64,000 nt of DNA, taken from the NCBI RefSeq assembly GCF_003581645.1, contig NZ_QXFK01000015.1:1-64000 (forward strand), given 5' to 3'. The notes beneath the pieces were generated by a model. That model was not told where the DNA came from and did no database searches. It saw only the letters and a program-made list of their open reading frames with translations. Source of the stretch: Pelagerythrobacter aerophilus (GTDB lineage Bacteria; Pseudomonadota; Alphaproteobacteria; Sphingomonadales; Sphingomonadaceae). Shown piece by piece: positions 1 to 41,221 of the stretch (position 1 is the stretch's first letter; each line of letters starts with the position of its first letter). The translations under genes and the position numbers were made by a program.

Positions 1-1133
1 AAGCGCCCTGCTTCCGGTCCGAACTGACGAATGCGAGGCCTGCCGATCGCCCCGTCCGGACGGCGGGTCCTGCTGTAGGAATAGCCGCAGGAGCAGGTAA
101 AATGACCGTGCAGCTTTCCGCGATCACGGACCAGCCTTTGCCTGGTCACGACTGGTTTCTCGAAATGCTCCGCCAGCGGGTTGAGACAGAGCCACGGCGG
201 CGGCCCGAACGGCCTTTCGACCTCCGGAACTTGCTCCAACGCAGTTTGAAGTACGAGATGCTGCGCCGGCGGCGCCAGCTTGCGTCTGTTGCGCAGCAGG
301 TCCGTCACCCAGTTCGGGCCCTCGTCAGTGCCGAGCGACAGCCCCGGTATCATCTCGAGCGTCTCGCCCCAGTAGTCGCTCACGAGCTGCTGTATTCGCG
401 AAGCTCGCAAGTGCTGCGTGCCTCTCAGCAGGCCGCGATCGGCGAGCATATGCCGGTAGTGCTGGTATTGTCCGGCCGGCCCATTCGGTTCCGGTGGCGC
501 ATCGAGAAGAGCCCGGCTCAGACGCGCTAGCTCGACCAGTTTCGGTGGCGGTGGTTTGCCGTTAGAACGGCATGACAGATCTCCGCTTTGCATTTCGGCA
601 GCCTCGTCCGGAGACATCAACGAATGCCGTTTCCGCGGGTTCAGCTCGGCCGAGGATCTGTACAGCCACGTCCCGTGTTCGGCACAGACGAGAACGCCCG
701 GTAGCTGCTGCCAGCGCAGCCACCACGCCTCGCCGGCCCGGTCCAGCACATCGGCGACGCAGTCCCGGCAGAATTGCAGGCTCCCGGGCATCGGCACCGG
801 AAACGTGGACAGGCCAAGCGTGAACTGCAGCGAGGCGCCCTGCCCCTTCATCTGCCGCAGCGCCCTCTCCCGAACCGTCTGGCTCGCGAACGCGGTGTGA
901 TAGCCATAGGTCGTGGTCGAATGGATCAGCTGGTCGAGCTGCTCGTCGGGCCAACCAAAGCGCTCGGCAACAGCTGCAAGATCGCAGGGTAGGTGACACA
1001 GGGCCACGAACTGCCGCCTGCCGGCAATCGCCCGCGCGAAGCTCGCGTAAGGAGGTCTGCCCAGATAGCGGTGCAACCGCACGAGCATGCTGTAGAAGGT
1101 CTCGCCAGGATAGGGCTCGGGCAACCAGTCCAT
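1..1133 (-). CDS. tniQ: TniQ/TnsD-family target-selection protein (3' part outside window)
   Basis: Translating the minus strand from the ATG at 1133 gives an open frame to the window edge (377 codons). It starts MDWLPEPYPGETFYSMLVR, the usual TniQ N-terminus. A zinc finger follows: Cys122-x2-Cys125 then Cys150-x2-His153. A second Cys-rich segment (FTCSCGYSYSR) lies near residues 345-355. TniQ proteins link a target-site recogniser to the TnsC ATPase; TnsD-type members bind the 3' end of glmS directly. It starts 3 bp after the tnsC stop, so the four genes form one unit tnsA-tnsB-tnsC-tniQ. Whether it is a glmS-binding TnsD cannot be judged because the C-terminal DNA-binding part is missing from the window. 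Confidence 0.9.
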   Translation of the reverse strand, partial: MDWLPEPYPGETFYSMLVRLHRYLGRPPYASFARAIAGRRQFVALCHLPCDLAAVAERFGWPDEQLDQLIHSTTTYGYHTAFASQTVRERALRQMKGQGASLQFTLGLSTFPVPMPGSLQFCRDCVADVLDRAGEAWWLRWQQLPGVLVCAEHGTWLYRSSAELNPRKRHSLMSPDEAAEMQSGDLSCRSNGKPPPPKLVELARLSRALLDAPPEPNGPAGQYQHYRHMLADRGLLRGTQHLRASRIQQLVSDYWGETLEMIPGLSLGTDEGPNWVTDLLRNRRKLAPPAQHLVLQTALEQVPEVERPFGPPPWLCLNPLAEHFEKPVVTRQRLVRDRGKLHGHFTCSCGYSYSRTRRPDGAIGRPRIRQFGPEAGR

Positions 1134-1136
1134 CGC

Positions 1137-2720
1137 TCAAGCTTCCGGCCAGATGCCGGTCAGCCCGGCTCCGCGTATAGCCTCGAGCGGCGTCAGGCCT
1201 CGCCCGGCCGCTTCTGCAACAAGCTTCCTGAGATCGCGATCCTCGAGGATGGCGGGGTCGAAAGCCACCTCGTCCTTGCGCTTCGATTTCCTGCCCCTGA
1301 TGAGCTTCCGGACGTGCTCGAAGAACCCCAGAGGGTCCTCCTGAGCGTCGTGGCCCTGCGCGCGGACCTTGTCGATCAGCTGCAGGATCAGGTCGTCGCC
1401 CAGACCTTCTGTCTGCAATTTCGACCAGATCAGCTGGTAATGGTCACCCTCGGGCACCGCGATCTTCGGCGAGGTGGACCCGCCGCTAGCGATCGGCTGC
1501 TGGATCTTGTGATCCATCAGCTGCTCGAGCGCTCCCCAGTAGCTGCGATCGAAGGCATGAAGGTCGTCGAAGCGCCTGAGGCTGGAGCTGTCACCCAGGC
1601 AAAGCGCCTCGATCATGGGGCGTACCGGCGCGAAATCGGCCTCGGCAACGCCGCGTACGAACGCGGGTGTGATGACCTCATCGCGCCCGCCGCCGACCTC
1701 GCTGCGATAGATCAGCCGCAGCTGGACCGAGACGTAGAGTTTCACCAGCAGATCTAGAATGCCGCCGGTGCACTCGAAGAACGTCTCCGCCAGTTCCTCG
1801 TCGAGTTCGGTCGCGGTCTGGGTCCATTGGAACCGCCAGAGCTGCTCGAGCAGGGATCGCCACTCGCGGTCCTGCGGCCGCGGCGTCCAGACCGCACACG
1901 CAGGGCCAACCGATCGGCGCGCCATGCGCCCCGTCTTCTGGACCTGGCCAAGCACGGACAGCGTGCCCGCGAGCAGCACAGGTATCGCGAGCTGGTTCGT
2001 GAGCCGCGTGAGGAAGGTCATCAGCTGATGCTCTTCGCCCGTGTGACGGCCGATATGCTGGATCTCGTCGATGACCAGAATGCCGACGCCGTGCCAGGCA
2101 GCGGCAAGCGCCATGCGGTTCATCAGGTCGTCGTCGGAAGCCCTGCGGGGCGCTAGCAGCGCGCCATAATCGGTGCTGCCCACAAGGCGGGTCAGTTCAT
2201 CGAAGAACTGCAGGCACAGACTGCGAATGGACCCGCGCTCAGGGCATTCCAGTTTGATCCATACGACCTGCCGCGGCAGGTTGGGCAGATCGGCGGCTTG
2301 CGGATAGCGCTTCAGCATCTGCTCGATGGTGCGGGTCTTGCCCATACCCGGGGCCCCGATGAGGAAACCGCTCCCCGCCCCGCTGTCGCAGCCGAGCGGC
2401 CGCGCCGGCAGGAGAAGGTCTTTCTTGCCGCGCTTCGCGAGCGCCGCCTGTCGCCGGATGAACTGGCCGCGCGACGGGTCCCGCCCCTCGTAGCCGGACC
2501 TCAGGAGCATCTCGATGCCCTCCGCGAAGCGGACATGTCGCGCGGCCGGGATGAACAGCTGCCTGAGGCGCAAGACGCAGTAGCGGCGCTCGACGTGGCG
2601 CAACGTCCGCTCGGCATCGGAGTGATGCGGCCTGCAGCCGATCTGGCGCGCCAGTTCGTTCATGGTCGCCAGCGGCGGGAGGACATCGAGATAGAGGTTC
2701 GCGGGCTGCGGGAGCGACAT
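1137..2720 (-). CDS. tnsC: TnsC-like AAA+ transposition regulator (left core)
   Basis: A 527-residue AAA+ ATPase with Walker A GAPGMGKT (residues 122-129) and Walker B ILVIDE (214-219). TnsC forms ATP-dependent filaments on target DNA and connects TniQ with the TnsAB transposase. The ATG overlaps the tnsB stop by one base (TGATG), so translation is probably coupled. Family membership is supported by its place between a DDE transposase with an intact triad and a TniQ gene. It resembles the right-hand TnsC in layout but differs clearly in sequence, so the two cores are not a recent duplication. Confidence 0.9.
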   Translation of the reverse strand: MSLPQPANLYLDVLPPLATMNELARQIGCRPHHSDAERTLRHVERRYCVLRLRQLFIPAARHVRFAEGIEMLLRSGYEGRDPSRGQFIRRQAALAKRGKKDLLLPARPLGCDSGAGSGFLIGAPGMGKTRTIEQMLKRYPQAADLPNLPRQVVWIKLECPERGSIRSLCLQFFDELTRLVGSTDYGALLAPRRASDDDLMNRMALAAAWHGVGILVIDEIQHIGRHTGEEHQLMTFLTRLTNQLAIPVLLAGTLSVLGQVQKTGRMARRSVGPACAVWTPRPQDREWRSLLEQLWRFQWTQTATELDEELAETFFECTGGILDLLVKLYVSVQLRLIYRSEVGGGRDEVITPAFVRGVAEADFAPVRPMIEALCLGDSSSLRRFDDLHAFDRSYWGALEQLMDHKIQQPIASGGSTSPKIAVPEGDHYQLIWSKLQTEGLGDDLILQLIDKVRAQGHDAQEDPLGFFEHVRKLIRGRKSKRKDEVAFDPAILEDRDLRKLVAEAAGRGLTPLEAIRGAGLTGIWPEA

Positions 2721-4810
2721 CAGTCGATCTCCCCCTCACCGAGATCATCGATCTGCCGATTGGAACCCAGCAAGGGCCGATCCGCTGACACGTGCTGACC
2801 GATCCGCTCGCGCAGTTCCTGCTTGGCTTCGAACCGCCGTGCGGTGCGCTCCGCGGCCTTGTTGGCACGGGCATTTTTCAGATCGCGGGGGCGCAGATCG
2901 CTCAGCCGCTCCTGGGCCGCGCCCTCGACGATGAATTGCACCCGGTTGCGGAACTCGGCGTGGTTGAGGACCTGGTCGAGGCGCCGGCCCTGCTCGGCAA
3001 TACGACCCTGCCGCCGCGATGCGTGGAGCTCGTCGAACGAGAAACCAGCATAAGCCTGGCTGAACGGTGTCAGGACCGCCTGCAGCGGCTCCTTTTCGCC
3101 AGGGATGTGCAGGTACACCGCATCGACCAGCCACGGGTGCCACGACAGTTTGAGTTTTCGCAGCGTGCCTGGCGCGTCGACCGCCTCGAACCAGCCCTCG
3201 GCCTCGGCGCGCTCGCAGGTGTAGAACAGTCCATCAAAGCGCACGCCCTGGTTGGTGATCGTCCCCGTTCCCTCCGGCATCAGGGCAATCGCAAGCTCCG
3301 CGGTCTCGAACCGCTGGAGGGCGACCCGCCCCGTGCGCATGCACCAGTCCCACATCGCCGAGGCGATGGGCGGGACGCCGTCCGCGATCATCGCGCGCGA
3401 TCGCCGGAATTTCTTCAGCTCCCGGTCGTTGAGATACAGGATGCAGGCCAGGACCACCTGCGTGACCTCGTCCAGATTCAGGATGGATTCGAGGCGGGGG
3501 TCGTCCTCACCGCGCTTGCCGGAGTCCTCGTCACGCGAACCTGGTACCTCGCCGCGGAATGCGCAGTTGATGAGATCGAAACGCTTCTCGCCGACGCCCT
3601 TCAGGTCCCCTCGGTAGGGGGCCGTGTTCTCGACGATAAGGCCCGATTTTTCGACAAAGCTGCTCGCCTTGTCGCCTTTGGCTTCGCCGCGATCGAACAG
3701 GTAGCGCATTGGCGCCATTCCGCTTGCCGGCCAGCGCCAGCGCCCGATTTCGAGCCCATATCGGCGGCACAGTTCGACCTTGTCTTCTACGCTACCCAGG
3801 ATGGCCATGCCGGCCGCCTGCCAGCACGCTTCTTCGAGGCTGATCCAAAACCCTACGATCAGCGCGGTGAACTCGTCGACGACGATGTAAAGCACCGGTG
3901 TTCCGAGGAACGCAGTTCGGTCGTGGCGCGCAACGAGGTTGGTATCGAGTTTCGTCGCATCGATGATGAACCTGCCGCCGGCGAGATTGTTGTCCTGCGC
4001 CGCGTAAGACAGCCGCGCCCGCGAGCGCATCGCGAACTTGGCGTCGCCAAGCCTGACCTTCGCGTCCGATTTCGCTCGGTTCTGCTTCCGGTACCAATGC
4101 CGAAACTGGCGCTCTGTCGGGAGAGGCATGTTCTCGTCGACCACGAAGGTGACAGGTAGGCCGGTCTCCTCGTCCAGAACGCAGCGTGTGGAAAGCCTCT
4201 CGAGCGCGCGCCTGAACGTCTCGGCGAGAGTGATGTGACGGGACCTTTTGTAGTAGCGGTTGGTGCAGGTCTCGAACGCCTTGATCATTTCTGCCGAAAG
4301 CGCAGGCGCCCGCGCGATGCCTTCCGCAGGCTTGCGGCCCCGCGGGCCGCCTGCAGGCTTGTCTTTGCCCGGCGCGCCGCATGTCTCGAAGCGCGGCATC
4401 AGCGCGTAGATCGTCATGCCGCCCCGCCAGTAGCGGTAGAGAGCGCTATGAACGGTCTTGCTGCAGATGCCGTTCTCTCGCGCGGCGCTTGCCACGAGCC
4501 TGCTGCGGCGTGAGGAGATGAAGATCTGCTCCCCGCTTGCAATCAGCGATCTGACGATCGCGAGGTGCCGGTCAGCGCGCGTCTGCTGAGCCTCGGAGCA
4601 GACAGTGTTGGGCGGCGCGTTGAACTCCTTGCCATCGAGCGGCTCGATCCTGCCCTTCTCGACGCCCAGCGCGAGAGCCGGGAGCGAATGCTCGGCAATG
4701 ACCGTCCGCGGCGCGTTCAGATCGAATAGATAGGCGCGCTCGTCAAACACGCCGACGATGCGAAAAATCCCCTGTTTGGGGATGCGCAGGATCTCGCGGA
4801 CGAAAATCAT
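2720..4810 (-). CDS. tnsB: TnsB-like DDE transposase (left core)
   Basis: 696 residues from the ATG at 4810, which overlaps the tnsA stop (ATGA); an upstream in-frame start at 4900 would lie inside tnsA and is less likely. The rve/DDE catalytic triad is visible: Asp284 in IIDATKLD, Asp373 in LFDRGE and Glu408 in GEKRFD. The spacing of 89 and 35 residues is almost that of Tn7 TnsB (D273, D361, E396). TnsB binds the repeated sites at the transposon ends, cuts and joins the 3' ends. The N-terminal 250 residues carry DNA-binding helices and the C-terminal tail is charged, as in TnsB proteins that contact TnsC. Confidence 0.93.
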   Translation of the reverse strand: MIFVREILRIPKQGIFRIVGVFDERAYLFDLNAPRTVIAEHSLPALALGVEKGRIEPLDGKEFNAPPNTVCSEAQQTRADRHLAIVRSLIASGEQIFISSRRSRLVASAARENGICSKTVHSALYRYWRGGMTIYALMPRFETCGAPGKDKPAGGPRGRKPAEGIARAPALSAEMIKAFETCTNRYYKRSRHITLAETFRRALERLSTRCVLDEETGLPVTFVVDENMPLPTERQFRHWYRKQNRAKSDAKVRLGDAKFAMRSRARLSYAAQDNNLAGGRFIIDATKLDTNLVARHDRTAFLGTPVLYIVVDEFTALIVGFWISLEEACWQAAGMAILGSVEDKVELCRRYGLEIGRWRWPASGMAPMRYLFDRGEAKGDKASSFVEKSGLIVENTAPYRGDLKGVGEKRFDLINCAFRGEVPGSRDEDSGKRGEDDPRLESILNLDEVTQVVLACILYLNDRELKKFRRSRAMIADGVPPIASAMWDWCMRTGRVALQRFETAELAIALMPEGTGTITNQGVRFDGLFYTCERAEAEGWFEAVDAPGTLRKLKLSWHPWLVDAVYLHIPGEKEPLQAVLTPFSQAYAGFSFDELHASRRQGRIAEQGRRLDQVLNHAEFRNRVQFIVEGAAQERLSDLRPRDLKNARANKAAERTARRFEAKQELRERIGQHVSADRPLLGSNRQIDDLGEGEID

Positions 4811-5616
4811 CGCCGAGCGGCCGCAAACTCGAAGTCGCTGGCCCTGAGATCGGGCGAAAACTCCTTCGTCATATCGAAGACGATCACGCGGGTGGCGCAC
4901 AAGTGCCGCACGCAGGCTATGAACTGCCGCTCGAGCAGCTTGCCATCGGCTTCCGCCTTGCGGGCAAGGTGCGATAACGGACGATCGCTTCCCGCGCGCA
5001 GCCGATCCGCCGTGAATGTCAGTGCATCCTCCCAGAACGCCTGTCCCTCACGAGGATCGAGCGCGTTCGACGAGAGAAACAGCCGGATATTGGCGCACCT
5101 TACCCGGTCGAGATCGCGGTCGGTGACGAGGCGCCATTCGACACCCTCCCCCTCCCAGTACCTCCGCTCGATCTCCAGCTTTTCCGCGGTGCGTGCCACA
5201 GCTTTGAGGCGTTTCGGGCTGCGAATATCGAACTCGCTCGCGCTCTTCACCGCCCGCGCATGGCGGGTTCTGCTTCGCCCATGTCCTATCTCGAACACGA
5301 AGTCGGTTGACAGCACCGCCGGCTCTTTCGTGCCCGGAACGATCGGATGCCGGATGCCGAGTTCGGCGGCGATACTTTGGGTCGCGTGCAGCGGCAGTGC
5401 GTACTGCTCGCGGATCTCGCCGACAGCGTCGCACCACTCGAGTTCTGTCAGCAGGCGCGTCTCCAGATCGCTCAGGAGGTGCCTTACGGCACCTCCCTGC
5501 AGGATCCGCGATGACCGCCCTTTCGACGGCACATCATGCACCCGCAGATGCGGCTCATGCGTGCGGGAAACGGCTGTACGCCGTCCGCTCTTCCGGCTTG
5601 CATTTCTTTGCACCAC
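4807..5616 (-). CDS. tnsA: TnsA-like endonuclease (left core)
   Basis: 269 residues with a GTG start preceded by GAGG at suitable spacing. TnsA is a restriction-enzyme-like nuclease that cuts the 5' strands at the transposon ends, allowing cut-and-paste movement. Candidate catalytic residues follow the TnsA order: Glu52 in LLSDLETRL, Asp105 in LSTDFVFE and Lys124 in RAVKSA. A winged-helix C-terminal part with IERRYW-type sequence follows, as in the TnsA family. It is the first gene of the left core and is translationally coupled to tnsB. The only regulatory structure seen upstream is the inverted repeat at 5632-5684. Confidence 0.9.
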   Translation of the reverse strand: MVQRNASRKSGRRTAVSRTHEPHLRVHDVPSKGRSSRILQGGAVRHLLSDLETRLLTELEWCDAVGEIREQYALPLHATQSIAAELGIRHPIVPGTKEPAVLSTDFVFEIGHGRSRTRHARAVKSASEFDIRSPKRLKAVARTAEKLEIERRYWEGEGVEWRLVTDRDLDRVRCANIRLFLSSNALDPREGQAFWEDALTFTADRLRAGSDRPLSHLARKAEADGKLLERQFIACVRHLCATRVIVFDMTKEFSPDLRASDFEFAAARR

Positions 5617-5631
5617 GGTACAACCTCAAGT

Positions 5632-5684
5632 ATCGACTCGACACACATTAAGTTACTACACACGCGTGCTAGAGTCGAGTCGAT
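5632..5684. promoter_or_regulatory. Inverted repeat with three GANTC sites upstream of left tnsA
   Basis: A perfect 11-bp inverted repeat, ATCGACTCGAC (5632-5642) and GTCGAGTCGAT (5674-5684), with a 31-bp AT-richer spacer. It ends 16 bp upstream of the tnsA start and lies between tnsA and the divergent small ORF at 5744. Three GANTC methylation sites fall at 5635-5639, 5672-5676 and 5677-5681. The position suits an operator for tnsA or a binding site for the HTH protein encoded at 6064; both roles are inference. Confidence 0.5.
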
Positions 5685-5743
5685 GCAGTTTTAGGTATAC
5701 AACACATCTGCTCATAGACGTTTTCAGGATAAGCTCTAGCGTT

Positions 5744-5986
5744 ATGCCGACAATTACTAGACGCAGTTTTCAGGATGCGATGATGGCAAACTTCGAGGTG
5801 TTTTTGACCAATCACACGAGCCTGAAAGTCGAGCTTCACTACAGAAGCCTCGACGATCTCAGCCTGGACTTGATGGGCAAGCACCGGCCGCTCATCGGTG
5901 CTCTCCTGCAGCCTGGCGAGGATGGCTTGCGCCGGAAGATCCTGATTCATCCGGCCAAGGTGGCCTGCGTCATCGAGCTCGATTGA
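5744..5986 (+). CDS. Small protein of unknown function (80 aa)
   Basis: I do not recognise this protein. The frame encodes 80 residues from the ATG at 5744; ATGs at 5780 and 5783 are alternative starts, and none has a strong Shine-Dalgarno sequence. The product is mixed-charge with no obvious membrane segment and ends in an alternating hydrophobic stretch (HPAKVACVIELD). It is divergent from tnsA and about 77 bp upstream of the HigA-like gene on the same strand, so the two may be co-transcribed. The position before an antitoxin-type HTH gene is where a toxin would sit, but it shows no RelE/HigB features that I can see. Confidence 0.45.
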   Translation: MPTITRRSFQDAMMANFEVFLTNHTSLKVELHYRSLDDLSLDLMGKHRPLIGALLQPGEDGLRRKILIHPAKVACVIELD

Positions 5987-6063
5987 GTCTTTGGCACCGG
6001 CTGCCTGCATTCTGAATAGGTAGGGCGGGCAATCTCCGCGATCCGGTTCGGTGAAGGATGCGG

Positions 6064-6369
6064 ATGATTTCCAAGATCGAAACCGCGGCGTACGACGCCG
6101 CGGATTACCTCAACGGCGCCGAGGATGTCGTCGCATACATCGATGCATACCGCGAGGACGGTTCGCCTGAGGAAACTCGTGCGGCAATGGGCGCTGTCGC
6201 TCGTACCGGTGGCATTTCAGAACTGGCGAAGCGAACCGGCATGTCAGGCGCCAGCCTTTCCAAAGTCCTTGGCGCGAACGGCAACCCGTCCTTCGAAACG
6301 GTGCGGAGCATGCTGCACGCGCTTGGCCTACGGTTGACGGTCAAAGTTTTGGAGCAGGAAACGAACTGA
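6064..6369 (+). CDS. HigA-like / Xre-family HTH protein, orphan antidote type
   Basis: 101 residues. The ATG at 6064 is preferred over 6058 because GAAGGA lies 6 bp before it. The sequence matches the layout of the putative addiction-module antidote family: an N-terminal AADYLNGAEDVVAYIDA segment, then an HTH (GISELAKRTGMSGASLSKVL) and NPSFETVRSMLHALGLRL. Members normally follow a RelE/HigB-type toxin; none is recognisable here. Placed between two transposition cores, it could act as a transcriptional regulator of tns genes, as Xre-type regulators do in some CRISPR-associated Tn7-like elements. That role is inference. Confidence 0.8.
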   Translation: MISKIETAAYDAADYLNGAEDVVAYIDAYREDGSPEETRAAMGAVARTGGISELAKRTGMSGASLSKVLGANGNPSFETVRSMLHALGLRLTVKVLEQETN

Positions 6370-6493
6370 TCGAGACGTCGTGCGCAGGCACGATGTCGGA
6401 CTTCAGCCATTCGTCCGCATAGATGGGAAAGGAAGGCTGGCCCTCGAAACTCTGCAGGGACATCTCACCAGGTCAAGATCGAGGATGAGGCGG

Positions 6494-8146
6494 TTATGGC
6501 ACTGCCAGCAGAGCGTCCAACCCCAGGCGAGCGCCGACGATCGACTCAAGGACATCCGTACCAGGCCTCAGGATAGTATCAAGATCCTCCTCGGTCGGCG
6601 TGCGCCTTTGCCTCTTCTCGACTTTTTTCCGCTTCCGCTCTTCGATCAGAATTTGCCGCTCAACTCTGACGAGGAACTCTCTGGGCTTCGAATAGATCTT
6701 GTCATCCAGGTCTTCAGACACCTTCTTCAGGATCTCGTCCTGCCGTTCGGTGATGATCTCGGCCGCGGCCATCGCGAGCCTGGCGCTTTCGACAAGGGTG
6801 TCGGCTTCGCGTGTAATTCGCTGCCGATGTTCCGCAATTTCCTCGTCGGTTGCATCGGTCAGGTCTCCCAGTTCGAGCGCCACAGGCGCCGTCTCGCTTT
6901 TCTCGCTGGCCTCCCCTTCAGCCTGCTTTCTCTCCAACTCCAGCTTTCGCGCTTCACTTGGTAGCGGCCTGAGGTCGGGGAAAGCCGCAAGCTTCGCGAA
7001 GTCTCGGCTTCTGAGTGCATCAAGATGTGCATGAACAGGCTTGAAGCACCATTCCGCTATGGCATCTATGAACCCCGGTGTGATGATCTCGTGGGCAAAG
7101 TCCTCTGAGTTTCCTGCCTTGATATCTCGTTTGCCCAACAGGATCAGTTCGCGCTGAACACGCTCGTAGAGGCTGATCGCAAGCGAGATCACGCCTTGCG
7201 AATGGTAGTATAACTGTTCGCTCAGGTCTTCGCTCAACTCGACGGGGGTTCTCGTCCACTGATACTGCCAAAGCGCCTCTGCAAACTGCCGCCAACTGCG
7301 GTCGTAGGGCAGGCGGTCCCAAACGTCGCTGGCCGCACCGCCAAATGCCAGCGCGCTCTCGAGCTCGCCTTCGACATAAGCTGCGCCTGCAAGGGTCCCG
7401 AGCAGTACGACAGGCACGTCCGCGTCGTCCTGCAGCCGCTTCAAAAGCTTCCTGACCTTCGAAACGTCACCGTTCTCGGTCGTGAGGAAATTTTGAACAT
7501 CATCAATCACGAGGCAGCCTAGCGAGTGCACCTTCGCCAGTTCCACCACCGCAGCGGGCCCCAGGTCTTTGCTCGCATTCTGAGCGAGGAACGTGTCCCT
7601 GATGCGTGGATCACCTGCCACCTCCGACAGGGCCTGAAGGAACTCCGTGCAGAACAGGGCCAGGTTTGATGGGCTTGCATGCAAGTGTAGCCAGGCAATT
7701 CTCGGCGCTTGCCCTTCCCGCTCGGTCCGCTGCTCGAAAAGGTTTAGAATCTGCCGAGTGGTCCGCGTCTTACCGAGGCCCGGCATCGCGAGAAGCAACG
7801 AGCCCTGCGCTGGCTGCCGATCAGGTTGGGACACCGGCAACGTCGCGCGATAGCTGCGTTGGCCCGGTATGAGCTCCGGGCATATTTCCAGTGGCTGGGT
7901 ATGAAACTTTTCCCGCTCCGCATGCTCCTCCCTGCTCTTCAGCAGCTCAATCAAGGCCAGACCGTAGCGCAACTGAAACTGCGTCGGCTCGAAGAAGTCA
8001 GCCAGTTGACGAAGCTTCTGAATCCGCAGGCTGTGCTCGAGCTGCCGATCCTCTGGAGACCACGGCGGGCGCGAAGACAGGTACGTTTTCAGCTGCATGC
8101 TATCGGGCACTGAGCGTTCACCGTATCGCATCGTCGGCCAAGTCAC
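6494..8146 (-). CDS. tnsC: TnsC-like AAA+ transposition regulator (right core)
   Basis: 550 residues starting at a GTG that overlaps the tnsB stop (GTGA). Walker A is AMPGLGKT (120-127) and Walker B CLVIDD (211-216). The C-terminal 150 residues are rich in Glu, Lys and Arg and probably helical or coiled-coil, ending IVGARLGLDALLAVP. No TniQ gene follows; the downstream 124 bp lead straight to the convergent HTH gene. It must therefore borrow the TniQ at the window's left edge, use a distant one, or be inactive in targeted transposition. Confidence 0.88.
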   Translation of the reverse strand: MTWPTMRYGERSVPDSMQLKTYLSSRPPWSPEDRQLEHSLRIQKLRQLADFFEPTQFQLRYGLALIELLKSREEHAEREKFHTQPLEICPELIPGQRSYRATLPVSQPDRQPAQGSLLLAMPGLGKTRTTRQILNLFEQRTEREGQAPRIAWLHLHASPSNLALFCTEFLQALSEVAGDPRIRDTFLAQNASKDLGPAAVVELAKVHSLGCLVIDDVQNFLTTENGDVSKVRKLLKRLQDDADVPVVLLGTLAGAAYVEGELESALAFGGAASDVWDRLPYDRSWRQFAEALWQYQWTRTPVELSEDLSEQLYYHSQGVISLAISLYERVQRELILLGKRDIKAGNSEDFAHEIITPGFIDAIAEWCFKPVHAHLDALRSRDFAKLAAFPDLRPLPSEARKLELERKQAEGEASEKSETAPVALELGDLTDATDEEIAEHRQRITREADTLVESARLAMAAAEIITERQDEILKKVSEDLDDKIYSKPREFLVRVERQILIEERKRKKVEKRQRRTPTEEDLDTILRPGTDVLESIVGARLGLDALLAVP

Positions 8147-10371
8147 GATGTTGCATTCAGCGGATTTGTGCGGTCATCTTTTGCAGGCGTTGTCCCCGGT
8201 GCGCGATCGAAGTTCCTTGCCCGCAACTCCCGGCGGAGTTGCTCCTGCATGCGTTCGATGTCCAGCTCAGTCTTGCGGTTGGAGGCAGCGCTCGAGATTG
8301 CTGAGGCGCGCAGCTTTTGGGGGTTCTCGAATTCGGCGTCGTCGAGATCGGCCCTGGTTTCTTCGACAAGTTCGTGAAAGGCGACGGACGACGCGATCTC
8401 CGCTTTCACTTTTCGGCTGTTCTGCTCGAGCCGGAGTTTGTGCGCTTCGCTGAAGCTCAGGTCCTTGTAAGCAGCGTAGTCTTCGAGGAGCTCACAGCGC
8501 TCACGCGACCCGTCTTGGCGGTGCCGCCAGATCACTGAGGTGTTCGACAGGTCCCAGGAGACAACCTGCTTGTTGGCCGCACCCGTTTTGTGGGCGTAAC
8601 CACCCTCGTAGAGTTCCGCACTCCGGTAATGCATCCCCTGGAAGCGCAAGCCTTTCTTCTCCGGCGTCGCGTGCCCCGTTTGCAGCAATGCGAAATCAAG
8701 TTCGGTGAGCGAAAAGCCCTTCAGCTCAGACTGGCCGTTGCTCCGCGCCCAGTTCCACATCGCCTTCGGAACAGCTGGGATCTTGGCTGCCACCATTTCC
8801 TTCGGCTGTTTGAAGCCGGAGAGCACATGATGGTTGTTGTAATAGAGAATGGCGCGAATGACGGCCCGGGTGACTTCGTCGATGTTGAACTTGGCCTTGC
8901 GACGATAATCATCGTCGCCGCGCTTCATGTGATCGAAGGCAACCGCCCCCGGCAGGATCGGCCTAAGCAGGTTGTTGATGATGTCGAAGCGCTTCTCGAC
9001 CGTCCCTTTCATGTCGCCGCGGTAGCCGGCGGTATTCTCGATGATGACGCCGGTTTTCGCGACCAGATCGGACGCCTTATATCCTTCGCCCTCACCTCGG
9101 TCGGCCAATATCCGGGCCGGCATAACGTCGCGAACGGGCCACTCTTCCGGTTCGATGTCGAGACCGTAGCGACTGCAGAATTTGACCTTATCCTCCGCCA
9201 CATTGCGCAAGGCGATACCGAAGGTGTGCCAGGACGCATTCTCGAAACCCAGGTACATGCCCACGATCATTCGGGAATAGACATCAATGACCAGATACAG
9301 CGTGGGGCGTCCGACGTAGCTCTCCCTGTCGATCAGCGAAACGCAGCCCACATCCAGCACCGTCGCATCGATCTCGAACCTGCTCCCGACACCGAAAAGT
9401 CTGCTCAGGCTCGAGCCGAAGCGAGCGCGCTTGGCCATATCATAGCCTGACGGACCGAGCCTTTCCTTCTCGTCGTCAGCGCTGCGACCACTGTTGTTGT
9501 ACCAGTACAAGAACTGGCGATAGGACGGGACCGCAACCTTGTCGGTCCAATCCTCCTCGCCCGTGCGAAGCTCCAATCCGGCGTCCTTGTTCAGCTGAGC
9601 TGTTGCTAGGTAGCCCCGAGCCTGATCGCTGCAGAACTTGAGCGAGACGCGGTCCTTGCCCTTGTAGTAGCGGTCCGTCATCTTCTTGAAGACACCCTCG
9701 ATCTCGGGTGTGATCCTGCATACTTGGCGGCCTTCGCCCACAGGACGCTTTTCCTTGCTACCGCGATAATTCTTGCGCTGACCGCGGCCGCCGACCTCCT
9801 CGTAATCAGGTATCAAAGCATCGGGCGTCATTCCCCGGCACCAGTATCGCCTGAGCAAGTTCTGGATCCTGCGTTCGGCCGAACCCTCCGCGAGCCCTTT
9901 TTTCTCCTTCCGCCGATCTGCCTTCCCAGACCTGATCAATTCGACGCGAGCCTTCGACGCTTGGGACCTGATCGCATCCACCCGGAACCGCTTGTTATAG
10001 ATGCGCGGCGCAGACCTTATGAGCGGCTCGATCAGCTTCCACGCCTCGTCGCGCCGGGCGATCTGCACATCGGTGTACTGGGTCTGCGGCTTCATGCCGT
10101 CGGATCGATAGGGTTCGGTTTCGATGATGCCCTTGCTCTCGAGCTGGCGAAGGAAATCCTGGTCGGCTTGCCAAAGCTTCGTGCTGCTCTCTGACATCCG
10201 GAATAGGATCACGTGCTCACCCTGAGCGAATACAACCCGGGCACGGGTGCCCTTTGCAACCTTTTGCGTCCGAAGGTCGTGCAGGAAGGCGAAAGGACCA
10301 CCGATCCGTTTGGACAGACGCTTCGGTTCCTTGGCCTTCTTGAAATGGATGATATCGCGCTGAAGAAGCAT
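8143..10371 (-). CDS. tnsB: TnsB-like DDE transposase (right core)
   Basis: 742 residues from the ATG at 10371, which overlaps the tnsA stop (TGATG); the longer frame to 10509 would run inside tnsA. The catalytic triad is Asp335 in EIDATVLD, Asp424 in LADRGEGEG and Glu459 in TVEKRFD, spaced 89 and 35 residues as in Tn7 TnsB and in the left core. The triad is intact, so the protein is probably catalytically competent. Motif neighbourhoods are shared with the left TnsB (PSYRQF versus PTERQF; YRGDMKG versus YRGDLKG), but the N-termini differ greatly, which suggests different end-binding specificity. Confidence 0.92.
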   Translation of the reverse strand: MLLQRDIIHFKKAKEPKRLSKRIGGPFAFLHDLRTQKVAKGTRARVVFAQGEHVILFRMSESSTKLWQADQDFLRQLESKGIIETEPYRSDGMKPQTQYTDVQIARRDEAWKLIEPLIRSAPRIYNKRFRVDAIRSQASKARVELIRSGKADRRKEKKGLAEGSAERRIQNLLRRYWCRGMTPDALIPDYEEVGGRGQRKNYRGSKEKRPVGEGRQVCRITPEIEGVFKKMTDRYYKGKDRVSLKFCSDQARGYLATAQLNKDAGLELRTGEEDWTDKVAVPSYRQFLYWYNNSGRSADDEKERLGPSGYDMAKRARFGSSLSRLFGVGSRFEIDATVLDVGCVSLIDRESYVGRPTLYLVIDVYSRMIVGMYLGFENASWHTFGIALRNVAEDKVKFCSRYGLDIEPEEWPVRDVMPARILADRGEGEGYKASDLVAKTGVIIENTAGYRGDMKGTVEKRFDIINNLLRPILPGAVAFDHMKRGDDDYRRKAKFNIDEVTRAVIRAILYYNNHHVLSGFKQPKEMVAAKIPAVPKAMWNWARSNGQSELKGFSLTELDFALLQTGHATPEKKGLRFQGMHYRSAELYEGGYAHKTGAANKQVVSWDLSNTSVIWRHRQDGSRERCELLEDYAAYKDLSFSEAHKLRLEQNSRKVKAEIASSVAFHELVEETRADLDDAEFENPQKLRASAISSAASNRKTELDIERMQEQLRRELRARNFDRAPGTTPAKDDRTNPLNATS

Positions 10372-11321
10372 CAGGCGGCATCCAGGAAGCGGTCGTTGGA
10401 CGCAGTGGTCGCAAACGGAGCTGCTGATGGGCCAGGAGCGAATTGTTCGGCCATCATGCCCGAACTGAACAGCCGGCTCATGTCGAACTCGAGGAAGCGA
10501 TATTTGCACAGCAGGCGGACCGCACGCACGACAGTCTCAACCTGGATGTTGCCGGCACGCATGAAGGGCGGCCGCAATTCCAATATCCGCGCCTTCGGCT
10601 TCGCCTGCATCTCCAGATAGGTCTGGATCAATCGGTCGGTCCAGAGGTCTCCTTCGCCGGCTTCAGGATCCTCGGTGCCGAGCAACAGTTCGATATTGAC
10701 CTTGCGAACCTTGCATGCGTCCTCATCGGTCACGAGATACCAGCCGCAGTTCTTCTCCGCCCAGTACCGCCTCTCGACCTCCAATCTGTCGATTGTATTG
10801 GTCACTTGGGTATTCGTTTTACCTGGCCTCTCCTTCACGGAGCGGCGAAGGGCGGAGACCGGCTTCACGGCGACCGCACGGCGCACGAGCGGTTCGTCTG
10901 GCCCAAAACGGAAGTCGACGACGAAATCGCTGGTCATGGGCAGGAGACCGCCATCACCGCTCAATTTGGGATGGTTGATGCCCATCTCGTCGGCAATCCG
11001 CTTGGTGACATCGCGTTCGAGCGGAAATTGCTCGCGGATCTCAACCACGTTGGGATGCCACATCAACTCCTGGAAGACTGCAGTTTCCAGATCCGACATC
11101 ATGTGCGCTTCGCGGTCCCTGTACTTCACACGAGAGACGCGACCGATCGAAGTGAAGTCGTGGATCAGGAGGAAGGGTTTGTAATCACCCTCGAGCGAGC
11201 CGCGCTTCTCGGCTTTCAGCTTTCGTGTGACCTGCTTTTCAGTCGTGATCCGCGCCCGCTTCGGATTTGGCACCAGCATCTCCATTCTTGTCGCAGCACT
11301 GAGCCTGGAGCTCACGCGCAC
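10371..11321 (-). CDS. tnsA: TnsA-like endonuclease (right core)
   Basis: 316 residues from the GTG at 11321, or 304 from the ATG at 11285 (MEMLVPNPKRAR); neither has a clear Shine-Dalgarno sequence. Likely catalytic residues in the 316-residue numbering are Glu79 (MSDLETAV), Asp132 (MTSDFVVDF) and Lys153 (AVAVKPVS). The order HDFTSIGRVSRV, then LETAVFQELMWHPNVVEIREQFPL is characteristic of TnsA. First gene of the right core. It faces the large cargo region, as Tn7 tnsA faces the right end, but no Tn7-type end is visible next to it. Confidence 0.9.
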   Translation of the reverse strand: MRVSSRLSAATRMEMLVPNPKRARITTEKQVTRKLKAEKRGSLEGDYKPFLLIHDFTSIGRVSRVKYRDREAHMMSDLETAVFQELMWHPNVVEIREQFPLERDVTKRIADEMGINHPKLSGDGGLLPMTSDFVVDFRFGPDEPLVRRAVAVKPVSALRRSVKERPGKTNTQVTNTIDRLEVERRYWAEKNCGWYLVTDEDACKVRKVNIELLLGTEDPEAGEGDLWTDRLIQTYLEMQAKPKARILELRPPFMRAGNIQVETVVRAVRLLCKYRFLEFDMSRLFSSGMMAEQFAPGPSAAPFATTASNDRFLDAA

Positions 11322-12011: not shown

Positions 12012-12800
12012 CTAAAGGTCCAGCATCTTTGGATCGAGTGTCAGCAACGTTGTCACTTTGCCGTCAGGAAGCCGAAATGTTTGCTCCGTCACCATGAACC
12101 GCTCGGCCATCGAGTTGTCGAACCAGTATGATGCCCTTACCTTCGCCGGCTGCCCTGGTTCGGGACCTCCCTTGAATAACGCACGGAAGCTAGGACTTTC
12201 GGGAAGCAGGTCCGGTCGTGGGAACCATCGATCGGGGATCAGAGGGGGCCTTCGGAACCAGCGCATCCCTTCCTGCGAGTGACAAACCAGCATTGACGGG
12301 AACCGGTTCGTGCTCAGCGCCCTGATGGTCGTTGCGGTCATGCTCGTCTCGAACCTGTCGGCCAATGTCTTCACAGCCGACAACGTCAAGCGGTCAACCT
12401 CCGCGATCATGGGCCTGAAGATGTATCCGGGGAGGAGCAGGTCGGATGCATAGGCGTCGGCCTGCAGTTCCGGGTTCCCAGCCGCACGCTCGCGACGTCC
12501 GTCGCTCAATGGGCGTCCGATATCCTGAGTCCGGCAGGTGAGGCAAAGCCCTCGGTGCCGATGCCAGTGGCCGAGCTCGTGCGCGACCGAGAAGCGCTTA
12601 CGCCGTGGCGCGGCCCGGGAGTCGACTGTGATGATCGCGCGCTCAGCCTGGCCGACGATGCGGGCCTCGCATGACTCGAGCTGCCTATACTTGACCTTCG
12701 CCCCGAGCGACAGGGCGATCACCTCGATGTCGATCTCCTCAGGCTCGGTGATGCCAAGCGCCTGCAGCGCCTGTTCCGCGGCGGTGAGCCTAGGCGTCAC
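12012..12800 (-). CDS. ImmA/IrrE-type zinc metallopeptidase
   Basis: 262 residues. The HExxH motif is in VAHELGHWH (His74, Glu75, His78), followed by NPELQADAYASDLLLP, the usual second signature of the family. Where most members have EAxxFA, this one reads QADAYA, so the usual third ligand Glu appears to be Gln114; nearby Glu112 or Asp116 might substitute. ImmA cleaves a phage repressor and IrrE (PprI) cleaves the DdrO repressor; CapP in CBASS islands cleaves CapH. The start overlaps the stop of the 130-residue gene upstream, so it is the last gene of a three-gene operon divergent from the cyclase operon. A role as the protease arm of a regulatory switch is inferred. Confidence 0.85.
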   Translation of the reverse strand: MTPRLTAAEQALQALGITEPEEIDIEVIALSLGAKVKYRQLESCEARIVGQAERAIITVDSRAAPRRKRFSVAHELGHWHRHRGLCLTCRTQDIGRPLSDGRRERAAGNPELQADAYASDLLLPGYIFRPMIAEVDRLTLSAVKTLADRFETSMTATTIRALSTNRFPSMLVCHSQEGMRWFRRPPLIPDRWFPRPDLLPESPSFRALFKGGPEPGQPAKVRASYWFDNSMAERFMVTEQTFRLPDGKVTTLLTLDPKMLDL

Positions 12801-13189
12801 GTATTGGCATCGTCGCCGGCGTCGCGCTCGAGTTCGGCGAGATCCTCCAGCAGACTTTCCTCATCGCCATCGGACTTTGCACTGCGGGCGGCCAGCGTCA
12901 TGCGGAATCCCGGATCGTTGGCGGCGGCGGCGAGCTTCGCCCGCATGCGATCCGCGTCGAAGTCAAGCACCCGCGGCATGGCGCGCTCTTGGTCGATCTG
13001 CTTGCGGAGCGTCGCCAGGCGGCCCTTCCGAAGTGCCATCTCAGCCCGATTCATGGCGTTCAGCACCGCAGCGAGGTCATCCTCGCCGGTTTCCTCCGCT
13101 TCCTCGGCAGTCTCGGCGAGGATGCTCTCGATCACGAAGTCGTCGATGAGCGAGAGCCGGTCCCTGTCGCACCCGTTTTTGTCGCTCAT
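12797..13189 (-). CDS. Small acidic helical protein of unknown function
   Basis: 130 residues, strongly acidic with several Glu/Asp clusters (ETAEEAEETGEDDLA near 26-40; DGDEESLLEDLAELERDAGDD near the end) and an Arg/Lys-rich middle. No family recognised and no membrane segment. Both ends overlap their neighbours by 4 bp (sigma-like gene upstream, metallopeptidase downstream), so the three are coupled. A natural reading is that it binds the sigma-like protein or is the peptidase substrate, by analogy with other ImmA/IrrE pairs, but nothing in the sequence proves this. Confidence 0.7.
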   Translation of the reverse strand: MSDKNGCDRDRLSLIDDFVIESILAETAEEAEETGEDDLAAVLNAMNRAEMALRKGRLATLRKQIDQERAMPRVLDFDADRMRAKLAAAANDPGFRMTLAARSAKSDGDEESLLEDLAELERDAGDDANT

Positions 13190-13773
13190 TGCTCCCGTCC
13201 TTTCGGAAAAGCGCTCAGCAGTCTACGCTTAAGACGTTTACGAACGGTGGCGAGGCCTCTCGTGTCAACCTCAAGGAGCTGCTCCAGTTCCTCACCCATC
13301 ATCCCATCGCACAAGCCCTCTACGAGAAGTTGGAGTTGCTCGTCGTCCTCGATGAGGTGGTCAATCGTCGTAAGTATCTGCCCATCATCGTGCGCCGACA
13401 GAACCATGCACTCGGGCGAAGGGCCTGAGTCCACCATCTCCGGGCCATCCGTCCCGTCCGGAAGCGAACGGACCTCCCGTTGCCCCGCAGCAATGGCGTC
13501 TATCTCGGCCGACGCGATGCTCCGGATGATCTGCACCACCACTGCGACGAAGTGGGGCCCACGCGGAACGCGCCGACTCCCGCTGACCATCCGGACGAAC
13601 GCCTCCTGCATCAGATCATCGGCGGGCATGCCGCACCGGCACTCGAACCAGCAAGCGGCCTGACGGATCTTCGCGGCGTCGCTTTTGCCGAGCTGCCGGA
13701 TCGTTTCCCGCACCTCATCCACCGATAGGTGATCGGCATCCTGCGTTTCCTCCTCATAGACCGCGTCCTGCAC
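13186..13773 (-). CDS. Sigma-70-family (ECF-like) factor or relative
   Basis: 195 residues from the GTG at 13773, chosen because GGAGGA lies 9 bp before it; the open frame continues upstream to 13935 but that part reads like non-coding sequence. A region-2-like segment with PADDLMQEAFVRMVS lies near residues 50-70, and a region-4-like HTH (GMMGEELEQLLEVDTRGLA) at 155-175 is followed by a basic tail. Spacing and composition fit a divergent ECF sigma factor. It heads an operon with the small acidic protein and the metallopeptidase, and is divergent from the cyclase operon across 160 bp, so it may direct transcription of one or both. Confidence 0.75.
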   Translation of the reverse strand: MQDAVYEEETQDADHLSVDEVRETIRQLGKSDAAKIRQAACWFECRCGMPADDLMQEAFVRMVSGSRRVPRGPHFVAVVVQIIRSIASAEIDAIAAGQREVRSLPDGTDGPEMVDSGPSPECMVLSAHDDGQILTTIDHLIEDDEQLQLLVEGLCDGMMGEELEQLLEVDTRGLATVRKRLKRRLLSAFPKGREQ

Positions 13774-15460: not shown

Positions 15461-15464
15461 GCCT

Positions 15465-37609: not shown

Positions 37610-37685
37610 GGAACTTCTTTTTTGTTCCAGATTCCGAAACGGAATATCTTTTTTGTCTCCGGAAAAACTCTTTTGTCCTCCTACA
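37610..37685. repeat. Inner Tn7-type transposon end with three TnsB-type sites
   Basis: Read leftward on the minus strand from 37685 it begins TGTAGGAGGACAAAAGAG, close to the Tn7 terminus TGTGGGCGGACAATAAAG. Three copies of a site of the form GACAAAAAAGnnnTTCC follow: 37661-37685, 37637-37660 and 37610-37628. The element it bounds lies to the left. The sequence differs from the outer end by several substitutions, so it is not a fresh duplication. The flank GCTTC is a candidate target duplication, but the partner copy is not in view. Confidence 0.8.
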
Positions 37686-39294: not shown

Positions 39295-39376
39295 AAAACG
39301 GAAGAACTTTTTTGTCTCAAACCCCAGAAATGGAAAAACTTTATTGGAAACGGAAAGACTTTTTTGTCTTCCTACA
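39295..39376. repeat. Outer Tn7-type transposon end (right end) with three TnsB-type sites
   Basis: Read leftward on the minus strand from 39376 it begins TGTAGGAAGACAAAAAAGTC, strikingly like the Tn7 right end TGTGGGCGGACAATAAAGTC. Three tandem sites follow: 39348-39376, 39328-39347 and 39295-39318, each of the form ACAAAAAAGnnnTTCCGTTT. The terminal A is followed by AGGTA, a candidate 5-bp target duplication. The end lies 21 bp from the glmS stop codon, matching the 23-25 bp spacing of Tn7 insertion downstream of E. coli glmS. Confidence 0.9.
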
Positions 39377-39397: not shown

Positions 39398-41221
39398 TCA
39401 CTCGACCGTGACGGACTTTGCGAGATTGCGGGGTTGATCGACGTCGGTGCCCTTCACACAGGCCGTGTGATAGGCGAGCAGTTGTACCGGCACGGCGTAG
39501 ACCAGCGGCGCGATCAGTGGGTGGACCTTGGGCATCTGGATCGTCGCCAGACATCCCTCGCCGGCTTCCAGCAGCCCTTCGGCGTCGGAGATCAGCACGA
39601 TCTTGCCGCCTCGCGCGCGGACCTCCTGCATGTTCGACACCGTCTTCTCGAACAAGGGGCCCGAAGGTGCGAGGACGATCACCGGTACCGCTTCGTCGAT
39701 CAGCGCGATCGGCCCGTGCTTCATCTCGCCCGACGCATAGCCTTCCGCATGGATATAGCTGATTTCCTTCAGCTTCAGCGCCCCTTCGAGAGCGAGCGGA
39801 TAGTCCGGCCCGCGTCCGAGGTAGAGCACGTCGCGCGCCGGCGCGATCAAGTGCGCCATGCTCGCGATGTCCTCGTCGTGATCGAGCGCGGCGTTGAGCG
39901 CAGCCGGCGCTTCCAGCAGGTGCTTCACCACTTCCTGCTCCTCAGCCCGGTCCATGCGGCCTTTCTTCACCGCCAGATGCGCGGCAAGCGCGGCGAGCAC
40001 CGCGAGCTGGCAAGTGAAGGCCTTGGTGCTGGCGACGCCAATCTCCGGGCCGGCATGGGTCGGGAGCAGCAGGTCAGCCTCGCGTGCCATCGAACTGGTC
40101 GGCACGTTGACCACCACGCCGATCGTCTGCCCGGCCGCCTTGCAATGGCGCAGTGCCGCCAGGGTGTCTGCCGTCTCGCCGCTCTGAGAGATGAACAACG
40201 CTAGGCCGCCCTCTTCCAGAACCGGATCGCGGTACCTGAACTCGCTCGCCACATCGATGTCCACCGGCACGCGTGCGAAGTGCTCGAACCAGTACTTCGC
40301 GACCAGTCCTGCATAGTAGGAGGTCCCGCAGGCGACGATCGTCACCCGTCTGATCGTCGAAAGGTCGAAGTCCATCTGCGGCAGCGCGACGGTGTTGTTC
40401 GCCTGATGCACGTAACTGCGCAGGGTCTGCGCAACGACGGTCGGCTGCTCGAATATCTCCTTCTGCATGAAGTGGCGGTAATTGCCCTTCTCCACCGCGG
40501 AGGCCGAAGCGCCCGAGGTGGTGATCTCGCGTTCCACCGGGTTGTTCTCGGCATCGAAGATCTGCGCTCCGTCGCGCCGCACGACGACCCAGTCCCCCTC
40601 GTCGAGATAGGTGATCTTCTGAGTCAATGGCGCCAGCGCCAGCGCATCGGAGCCAAGATAGGTCTCGCCCTCGCCGTATCCGACGACTAGCGGCGAGCCG
40701 AGCCGGGCACCGATCAGCATGTCCGGATGGTCGCGGAAAGCGATCGCGAGCGCGAAGGCCCCGCGCAGCCGTGGCAGCACAGTCTTGACTGCCTCTTCCG
40801 GTGAAGCGCCATTCTCGATCTCTTCGGAGATGAGGTGCGCGACCACTTCACTGTCGGTCTGGCTTTCGAGCTTGCGGCCCTTGGCAATCAATTCATCGCG
40901 CAGCGGCTTGAAGTTCTCGATGATGCCGTTGTGGACAAGGGCGACATGGCCGGTCGCATGGGGGTGCGCATTGTTGGCCGTCGGTGCGCCATGGGTGGCC
41001 CAGCGCGTGTGCGCGATACCGATCGTACCGGGCGCGGAGCCGTGTTCGAGCTCCTTGATCAGGTTGGCGAGCTTGCCCTCCGCACGGCGGCGTACGAGAT
41101 TGCCGTCGTTCACGGTGCAGACCCCGGCGCTGTCGTAGCCGCGGTATTCCATCCGCCTCAGGCCGTCGACCAGCCGGTCCGCAACCTGATCCCTACCGAC
41201 GATGCCGATGATTCCGCACAT
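39398..41221 (-). CDS. glmS: Glutamine-fructose-6-phosphate aminotransferase
   Basis: 607 residues, full length. It makes glucosamine-6-phosphate from fructose-6-phosphate and glutamine, the first step to UDP-GlcNAc for peptidoglycan and LPS. The N-terminal glutaminase has the catalytic Cys2 (MCGIIGIVG), RWATHG and HNGIIEN; two SIS isomerase domains follow with ACGTSYYAG and SQSGETADT. The C-terminus KGTDVDQPRNLAKSVTVE is the conserved end used as the attTn7 recognition site. Just upstream are toxin-antitoxin genes on the same strand, only 15 bp away, so glmS may be co-transcribed with them. Confidence 0.98.
   Translation of the reverse strand: MCGIIGIVGRDQVADRLVDGLRRMEYRGYDSAGVCTVNDGNLVRRRAEGKLANLIKELEHGSAPGTIGIAHTRWATHGAPTANNAHPHATGHVALVHNGIIENFKPLRDELIAKGRKLESQTDSEVVAHLISEEIENGASPEEAVKTVLPRLRGAFALAIAFRDHPDMLIGARLGSPLVVGYGEGETYLGSDALALAPLTQKITYLDEGDWVVVRRDGAQIFDAENNPVEREITTSGASASAVEKGNYRHFMQKEIFEQPTVVAQTLRSYVHQANNTVALPQMDFDLSTIRRVTIVACGTSYYAGLVAKYWFEHFARVPVDIDVASEFRYRDPVLEEGGLALFISQSGETADTLAALRHCKAAGQTIGVVVNVPTSSMAREADLLLPTHAGPEIGVASTKAFTCQLAVLAALAAHLAVKKGRMDRAEEQEVVKHLLEAPAALNAALDHDEDIASMAHLIAPARDVLYLGRGPDYPLALEGALKLKEISYIHAEGYASGEMKHGPIALIDEAVPVIVLAPSGPLFEKTVSNMQEVRARGGKIVLISDAEGLLEAGEGCLATIQMPKVHPLIAPLVYAVPVQLLAYHTACVKGTDVDQPRNLAKSVTVE

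Follow-up and report, generated by a model that had tools for sequence, protein, structure and literature searches.

The window analyzed here is the first 64,000 nucleotides of contig C2 of Pelagerythrobacter aerophilus (NZ_QXFK01000015.1); C1 and C19 denote other contigs of the same genome. It carries two tandem tnsABC operons that both run leftward, core 1 (11321-6494) and core 2 (5616-1137), followed by a TniQ/TnsD-like gene, and all six core open reading frames are open (Table 1). Homologs of TnsA, TnsB, TnsC and TniQ/TnsD are thus all present, as expected of a Tn7-like element judged from its predicted proteins. The gene at 39398-41221 is glmS, so the locus is attTn7, for which the 3' end of glmS is the target.

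Table 1. Coordinates of the dual-core element and its target gene in the window
Feature	Position	Strand	Matches and residues
TniQ/TnsD-like selector	3..1133	-	cut by contig start, 377/423 aa; PF06527 1.5e-12, PF15978 1.7e-31; Tn7 TnsD E 2.9e-22
TnsC2, core 2 ATPase	1137..2720	-	canonical AAA+: Walker A, DE Walker B, ARR; Tn7 TnsC E 3.2e-49
TnsB2, core 2 DDE transposase	2720..4900	-	D314, D403, E438; Tn7 TnsB E 6.7e-66
TnsA2, core 2 endonuclease	4807..5616	-	PF08722 9.1e-16; catalytic residues E52/D105/K124
orf68, small gene upstream of tnsA2, divergent	5780..5986	+	in three dual-core elements; no Pfam/NCBIfam match
HI1420-type addiction-module antidote gene, between cores	6058..6369	+	TIGR02684 1.1e-23, PF21716 3e-19
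TnsC1, core 1	6494..8146	-	Walker A kept, Walker B DD, RR pair lost; Tn7 TnsC E 3.1e-22
TnsB1, core 1 DDE transposase	8143..10509	-	D381, D470, E505; Tn7 TnsB E 1.6e-72
TnsA1, core 1 endonuclease	10371..11321	-	PF08722 2.6e-14; catalytic residues E79/D132/K153
Second right end R2	37610..37685	-	three TnsB-type sites, terminus TGTAGGAGGAC
Right end R1, adjoins glmS	39297..39376	-	three sites, terminus TGTAGGAAGAC; near-identical end in G004
glmS	39398..41221	-	SIS + GATase domains; 71-97% identical genes in compared genomes

Two cores and one selector

TnsA (PF08722), TnsC (AAA_22 and TniB) and TniQ/TnsD exceed their Pfam cut-offs. The two TnsB proteins score 17.8 and 19.0 bits, under the Mu-transpos_C cut-off of 21.7 bits, and both match the solved Tn7 TnsB along most of their own length. 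The true starts may lie nearer 4810 for TnsB2 and near 10371 for TnsB1. NCBIfam gives no match for TnsA, TnsB, TnsC1, TniQ or orf68, and for TnsC2 a weak match to TIGR02928 (orc1/cdc6) that falls below the cut-off.

An earlier note on this DNA described two cores of one direction with intact D-89-D-35-E triads, candidate TnsA catalytic residues and Walker motifs. The orientation, the DDE spacings of 89 and 35 in both TnsB1 and TnsB2, and the TnsA E/D/K residues of both cores agree with this description, and the triad is conserved in both cores of all three genera that carry the pair. Walker A is retained in both TnsC proteins, but the Walker B motif of TnsC1 is DD rather than DE, so the description of the ATPases holds only in part. 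The strong divergence that the note saw in the TnsB N-termini and TnsC tails is confirmed, at 26% and 24% identity; over the whole proteins, the cores are 35% (TnsA), 31% (TnsB) and 29% (TnsC) identical.

A single TniQ had also been claimed. Each dual-core unit does have one, but the genome implies two copies and the window copy is incomplete. An exact repeat of 1331 bases holding most of TniQ lies at four contig ends, namely both ends of C19 and the start of each of C2 and C1, which implies two TniQ genes whichever way the contigs are joined. TniQ can be read at full length on C1 and C19 (423 residues each), where the sequence neighboring the two copies differs (94% over 2.27 kb).

The dual-core TniQ proteins are short, at 413-423 residues. 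When all 34 selector rows are aligned, 27 of the 31 single-core selectors extend 100-188 residues beyond the point at which the dual-core proteins stop; the three dual-core selectors end 0, 0 and 1 residue past it, and that of Sphingomonas sp. Leaf33, a single-core relative, extends 133. The other four single-core selectors extend by 0, 24, 47 and 59 residues, so a short TniQ is typical of dual-core elements and not unique to them. Shortness as a mark of dual-core elements only, suggested by 10 chosen rows (118-138), was dropped once all 31 single-core selectors were compared. According to the text available from PMC2918618, C-terminal deletions of Tn7 TnsD, even to residues 1-498, abolish attTn7 binding and keep TnsC binding, with TnsC contacting TnsD by way of its residues 1-293. 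By alignment, the C-terminal region that Tn7 TnsD needs for attTn7 binding appears to be absent from the three dual-core TniQs.

Two features accompany the selector genes. Just before the second TniQ copy on C19 (L008:14136-15401), an in-frame fusion joins a DUF3644 domain (PADLOC PDC-S19 candidate defense protein) to the C-terminal ~117 residues of TnsC2 (94% identical); the fusion may be a recombination scar or a swapped tail. An Xre/MbcA/ParS-type antitoxin-like gene follows each TniQ copy (L007:1754-2251, L009:1752-2249, C19 22847-23177; Pfam match on the C19 copy), and an orphan fragment of such a gene lies farther along C19.

Element ends and dual-core loci in other genera

The same gene order, in which core 1 without a TniQ is followed by core 2 and then TniQ at glmS, is common to three genera. 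In Allopontixanthobacter confluentis (G252; L053/L054) a right end and core 1 come after glmS, and other genes occupying 15.5 kb separate core 1 from core 2, which is followed by TniQ and a left end. In Croceicoccus mobilis (G415; L069) the succession is glmS, right end, core 1, core 2 and TniQ, and the contig stops ~1.6 kb past TniQ, before any left end. The coordinates of the locus in G603 are identical to those of this Croceicoccus locus.

The ends were delimited from a repeated motif, GACAAWAAAGTYNTTCC. At up to three mismatches it has six matches in the window against 0.45 expected, a number that none of 100 shuffles reaches, and all six fall into two groups of three, one ending at 39376 and the other at 37685. 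These clusters, R1 and R2, are right ends of one type and one orientation, 1.69 kb apart. An inverted cluster of three sites with spacings of 75 and 56 occurs on C19 (30299-30457), and the left-end sites of A. confluentis are similarly spaced (75 and 57). In that genome, one right end (27804) and one left end (85220), 57.4 kb apart, bound both cores and are flanked on both sides by ACTG. The right end lies directly downstream of glmS in P. aerophilus, A. confluentis, Croceicoccus and a further genome, G004, of the same genus as P. aerophilus.

In the G004 element (C1 ~1298000-1362650 in that genome), the right end is near-identical to R1 and lies 64.7 kb from a left terminus of the C19 type. 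Because one element carries both, with GCGT on both flanks, the two termini belong together. The G004 element keeps only a rearranged scrap of tnsA1-tnsB1, and TniQ was not found in G004 (no control match there, with a model that did match in the P. aerophilus genome); the 64.7-kb element is apparently unable to move by itself. A left-end partner sharing the terminal 8 bases of R1 was also sought, and none was found; G004 pairs its TGTAGG right end with a TGTTGTGA left end.

Taken together, the predicted ends are asymmetric, with TGT/ACA termini and putative TnsB sites repeated at ~0/20/52 in the right end and ~0/75/132 in the left. Both delimited elements, in G004 and A. confluentis, are flanked by 4-base direct repeats with no clear fifth base, and no flanking direct repeat was found for the P. 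aerophilus element. Each of the three dual-core loci also has a second or leftover end: R2 in P. aerophilus, a TGTTGTGAGAC end that abuts the left end in A. confluentis, and a doubled 11-base terminus in Croceicoccus.

A collection of one genome each for 84,980 species, searched with two short peptide patterns, yielded 74 loci; three of these (two genomes) lie in dual-core elements, and the other 71 show one TnsB each, as judged on stretches of at most 10 kb per side and often less. Among 397 genomes of the family, a TnsC2 relative occurs in four, namely P. aerophilus, G252 and G603, all with core 1, and G011, which has a single core of another line. A TnsC of the core 2 type (at least 59%) is thus found in 3 of the 397, and core 1 is present in all three. 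TnsB matches occur in four of 396 genomes of the order (P. aerophilus, G252 and two single-core genomes) and in three of 59 relatives (P. aerophilus, G011 and G006). No dual-core element beyond the one known locus was found among 14 Croceicoccus genomes. No close plasmid relatives were found, and all 458 and 460 matching records fall below 60% identity; the top identity is ~34% among the best 40 of 458 and the best 40 of 460.

The small gene orf68 is divergent from tnsA2 at all three dual-core loci. Its products have 68-71 residues, and the other two are 41% and 34% identical to the P. aerophilus copy; in the other loci and stretches searched, no match was better than E 1. A conserved companion gene of core 1 was looked for as well. 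The candidates at 12-14 kb (an M78 protease, a 130-aa protein and a sigma-like gene) are unmatched in the A. confluentis and Croceicoccus stretches and were rejected.

Predicted cargo in the window includes a Pycsar-type defense set (12012-17221), in which a TIR effector and an E2-like protein accompany a PycC cyclase (E 1.9e-229); the set adjoins the M78 protease, which is capP-like. An APH/TCAD9-like kinase gene lies between R1 and R2 (37702-38658). In Allopontixanthobacter, a Hachiman-like HamB (E 6.6e-51) is found between the right end and core 1 (L018:8607-13246), together with a weak match to HamA (E 7e-4).

Age and unequal evolution of the pair

Trees were built from 36 rows each for TnsB and TnsA and 35 for TnsC, from which one short row was omitted. 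The core 1 proteins of the three genera form a clade (support 100/96 in TnsB, 98/89 in TnsA, 99/96 in TnsC), as do the core 2 proteins (100/100, 100/99 and 100/100). Both sets join the single-core Leaf33 in a group of seven (100/100, 99/98 and 98/96). Leaf33 is placed with core 1 in TnsB (94/83), outside both cores in TnsA (92/85) and with core 2 in TnsC (96/85), and this shift between subunits leaves the order of the split unsure. A TnsB tree that unites both cores in one clade is not rejected (AU p = 0.124, TnsB only), and several rows, TnsC1 among them, have long branches that make their placement unsure.

The earlier note held that the cores were not a recent duplication, which agrees with two old clades descended from an old duplication. 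It also expected the idea of two machines to fall if the cores grouped as sister lineages with no relatives of their own. Both cores do share a clade with Leaf33, yet each has orthologs in two other genera; their closeness therefore reflects an old duplication kept as a pair, and the two-machine idea is not refuted by it. The trees indicate that the two cores are an old pair kept together.

The two ATPases have evolved very unequally. Between genera, the AAA+ part is 68-74% identical in TnsC2 and 24-35% identical in TnsC1. At the position of the Walker B glutamate the three TnsC1 proteins have D, D and H (motifs DD, DD and DH), and the RR pair is absent from all three. Ten single-core TnsC proteins and Tn7 TnsC have DE at Walker B and an RR pair that is present as ARR (GRR in Leaf33). 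With its DD Walker B motif and without the RR pair, the core 1 ATPase is not canonical. At 40 TnsC columns that are near-invariant in 29 single-core rows, core 1 retains 23, 27 and 22 and core 2 retains 35, 38 and 35 (Fisher p = 0.005, 0.003 and 0.003 for three genera that are not independent; sign test p = 3e-4, and between 1e-8 and 0.06 when three other thresholds are used). An AF2 model of TnsC1 has moderate confidence (mean pLDDT 62.8, pTM 0.50, from a six-row alignment that includes the TnsC2s); it most closely matches Tn7 TnsC, and TnsC1 has therefore probably retained the fold.

Interpretation of the doubled core

The sequences show two open cores whose order is kept across three genera, a single R/L pair that encloses both of them in Allopontixanthobacter, and two old clades; the TnsA and TnsB catalytic residues are retained in both cores. 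We read these loci as a sphingomonad Tn7-like family that homes to attTn7 with two paralogous TnsABC cores, which share one TnsD-type selector and a single type of end, and we give this reading a probability of about 0.5. Its parts differ in strength. That each locus holds one element with a selected pair of cores is very probable, and TnsC1 is likely to be impaired in hydrolysis. Joint action of both cores on the same ends has somewhat less than an even chance, and relief of target immunity by TnsC1 is unlikely.

On this reading, core 2 would be the targeting core with TnsC2 as the partner of TniQ. These two proteins have the conserved regions that such a contact requires, and the TnsAB pair of either core looks capable of cutting and joining. 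Core 1 would supply a second TnsAB together with a TnsC1 that binds ATP but whose hydrolysis of it is weak or absent. Most likely, both cores would act together on the same ends, through mixed TnsC assemblies or with one TnsAB per end or step, and not as two independent transposons. A discussion passage of PMC11208146 connects failure to hydrolyze ATP with the loss of target immunity, and a non-hydrolyzing TnsC1 could weaken immunity such that copies stack at one site. The second or leftover ends at the three loci fit this idea but are no test of it. In its fullest form, which we consider unlikely, the proposal is a doubly heteromeric Tn7 transpososome: an ATP-locked TnsC1 would co-assemble with TnsC2-TniQ at glmS, two TnsAB pairs would serve one element, each at its own end or step, and the less immunity-sensitive insertion would build stacked attTn7 islands.

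Several observations weigh against this reading. Only three dual-core loci are known here, of which one is bounded at both ends. The left end in P. aerophilus sits on C19, a contig that could lie between C2 and C1 or be a separate circle, and the flank of this end does not repeat the bases beside R1 or R2. TnsC1 is fast-evolving, with tree tips of 1.7-4.4 against 0.3-0.5 for TnsC2, which fits decay too. TnsA1 and TnsB1 are by alignment no less canonical than TnsA2 and TnsB2 (core 1 retains 20, 20 and 20 of 24 TnsA columns and 42, 43 and 40 of 47 TnsB columns; core 2 retains 16, 12 and 12, and 35, 38 and 40), but the sign of core 1 as the more canonical depends on the threshold (p = 0.006-0.84 for TnsA, 0.035-1 for TnsB).

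Repeats around and between the cores count on the same side. The P. aerophilus inter-core stretch has 19 direct near-repeat pairs of 12-mers (mean 5.2 and maximum 17 in 20 dinucleotide shuffles), and that of Croceicoccus has six (mean 2.0, maximum 9). Part of the excess is two exact copies of ATCCTGAAAAC at 5720 and 5766, before orf68. The 10-mer ATCCTGAAAA occurs four times in ~460 kb (six stretches), always in this region, with two copies in P. aerophilus and one each in Croceicoccus and A. confluentis. The stretch between orf68 and tnsA2 that holds these copies (5617-5779) is a candidate control region; the ATCCTGAAAAC copies resemble promoter or operator sequence, and the repeat is more probably a control or ribosome-binding sequence of orf68 than an end. 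Inverted 14-mers around core 1 number 10, 21 and 69, above the maxima of 9, 17 and 55 in 10 single-base shuffles. Between the A. confluentis cores, a second consensus gives three single 4-mismatch matches (50746, 53468 and 53985), which are unclustered and near the shuffle level for that length with the first motif (2.55); because the end sites of this genome themselves score only 2-4 mismatches, the scan is weak there.

The best-surviving alternative, still an unlikely one, treats core 1 as a relic or passenger. The inner ends of an older element, once stacked or duplicated, would have been lost; core 2 and TniQ would do all the work, and core 1 would be decaying. The loss of canonical ATPase residues in TnsC1, the fastest-evolving subunit, fits this explanation, as does the reduction of core 1 to a scrap in G004. 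However, all core 1 reading frames are open in three genera, at 23-43% protein identity, with TnsA and TnsB catalytic residues retained, and the catalytic domain of TnsB1 is 55-59% identical between genera (TnsB2, 60-63%). Over 243 codons, 14 synonymous and 5 further changes separate the tnsA1 genes of P. aerophilus and G004, a dN/dS of 0.10 that was measured against a now-truncated gene, so some of the changes may postdate gene loss.

Less likely again is a pair of separate elements with ends of their own, stacked or nested at attTn7 and lying side by side in P. aerophilus. The two right ends in the window agree with it. The TGTTGTGAGAC end in A. confluentis and the doubled Croceicoccus terminus indicate that remains of further insertions exist in the family, and the excess of direct repeats between the P. 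aerophilus cores and of inverted 14-mers around core 1 could be taken the same way. Against this, GACAAWAAAGTYNTTCC sites, even at up to four mismatches, are absent between the cores in P. aerophilus (877 b), Croceicoccus (418 b) and A. confluentis (15,534 b), so that known end sites form no cluster there at any of the three loci. The order is identical in three genera, and one R/L pair spans both cores in A. confluentis. A nested element around core 1 with other ends was set aside in turn, since the inverted 14-mers are in excess over single-base shuffles yet no clustered set is seen among them.

Least probable are two independent machines with two sets of ends and a shared TniQ: the TnsB N-terminal parts, 26-35% identical within a genome, could allow different DNA preferences, but scans of the window, C19, 60 kb of C1, and the A. 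confluentis, G004 and Croceicoccus stretches gave one site type only.

The earlier note had left a choice between two stacked elements and one island whose two transposases share a selector and recognize two sets of ends. The island with a shared selector is favored by the same layout at glmS in two other genera, the single R/L pair in Allopontixanthobacter and the lack of an end cluster between the cores. Its two sets of ends are not borne out, because the delimited ends have one site type and the sites at 37.6 and 39.3 kb are both right ends. Stacking leaves the two cores unexplained, even though second or leftover ends are present at these loci.

The dual-core element resembles E. coli Tn7 (TnsABC+D at attTn7) in its glmS target and in its TnsB, TnsC and TnsD, which match solved Tn7 proteins. 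As in Tn7, the right-end sites are clustered, the left-end sites are spaced, and the termini are TGT..ACA. Unlike Tn7, it has two TnsABC sets, a shorter TnsD, a non-canonical TnsC1 and a flanking repeat that, where one was seen, appears as 4 bases; that of Tn7 has five. The single-core Tn7 architecture, with one TnsABC per element, does not describe it. Leaf33 (L091) is the nearest single-core relative in all three trees and also sits at glmS, with TnsA facing that gene. It differs in having a single TnsABC and in giving two TniQ hits, of which the first is part of a 573-aa protein; the sequence after its glmS also contains no match to the end motif of the dual-core elements.

The literature covered, which includes PMC10293859, PMC8649781, PMC12150760, PMC2918618, PMC11208146 and PMC13370975, describes tandem TniQ/TnsD genes. 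Dual TniQ-TnsD elements, as far as they are described in the sections available from PMC10293859, likewise double a transposition component within one element. They double the selector, whereas the dual-core unit doubles TnsABC and keeps the selector single. No element with two TnsABC cores was found in the accessible portions of the open full-text literature, a scope outside which subscription journals fall, including the 2014 heteromeric-transposase review.

In the portions of the surveys available, Tn7 elements vary mostly in their cargo and target selector. The doubling described here affects the transposase-ATPase core, whose copies make up two old, diverged clades that are retained with a single selector and a single type of end. 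The family is consequently a natural system for asking how TnsC hydrolysis, target immunity and end pairing divide among subunits, and it also raises the question of how a TnsD without the usual C-terminus finds glmS. If TnsC1 does relax immunity, then this would help to explain the growth of islands at attTn7.

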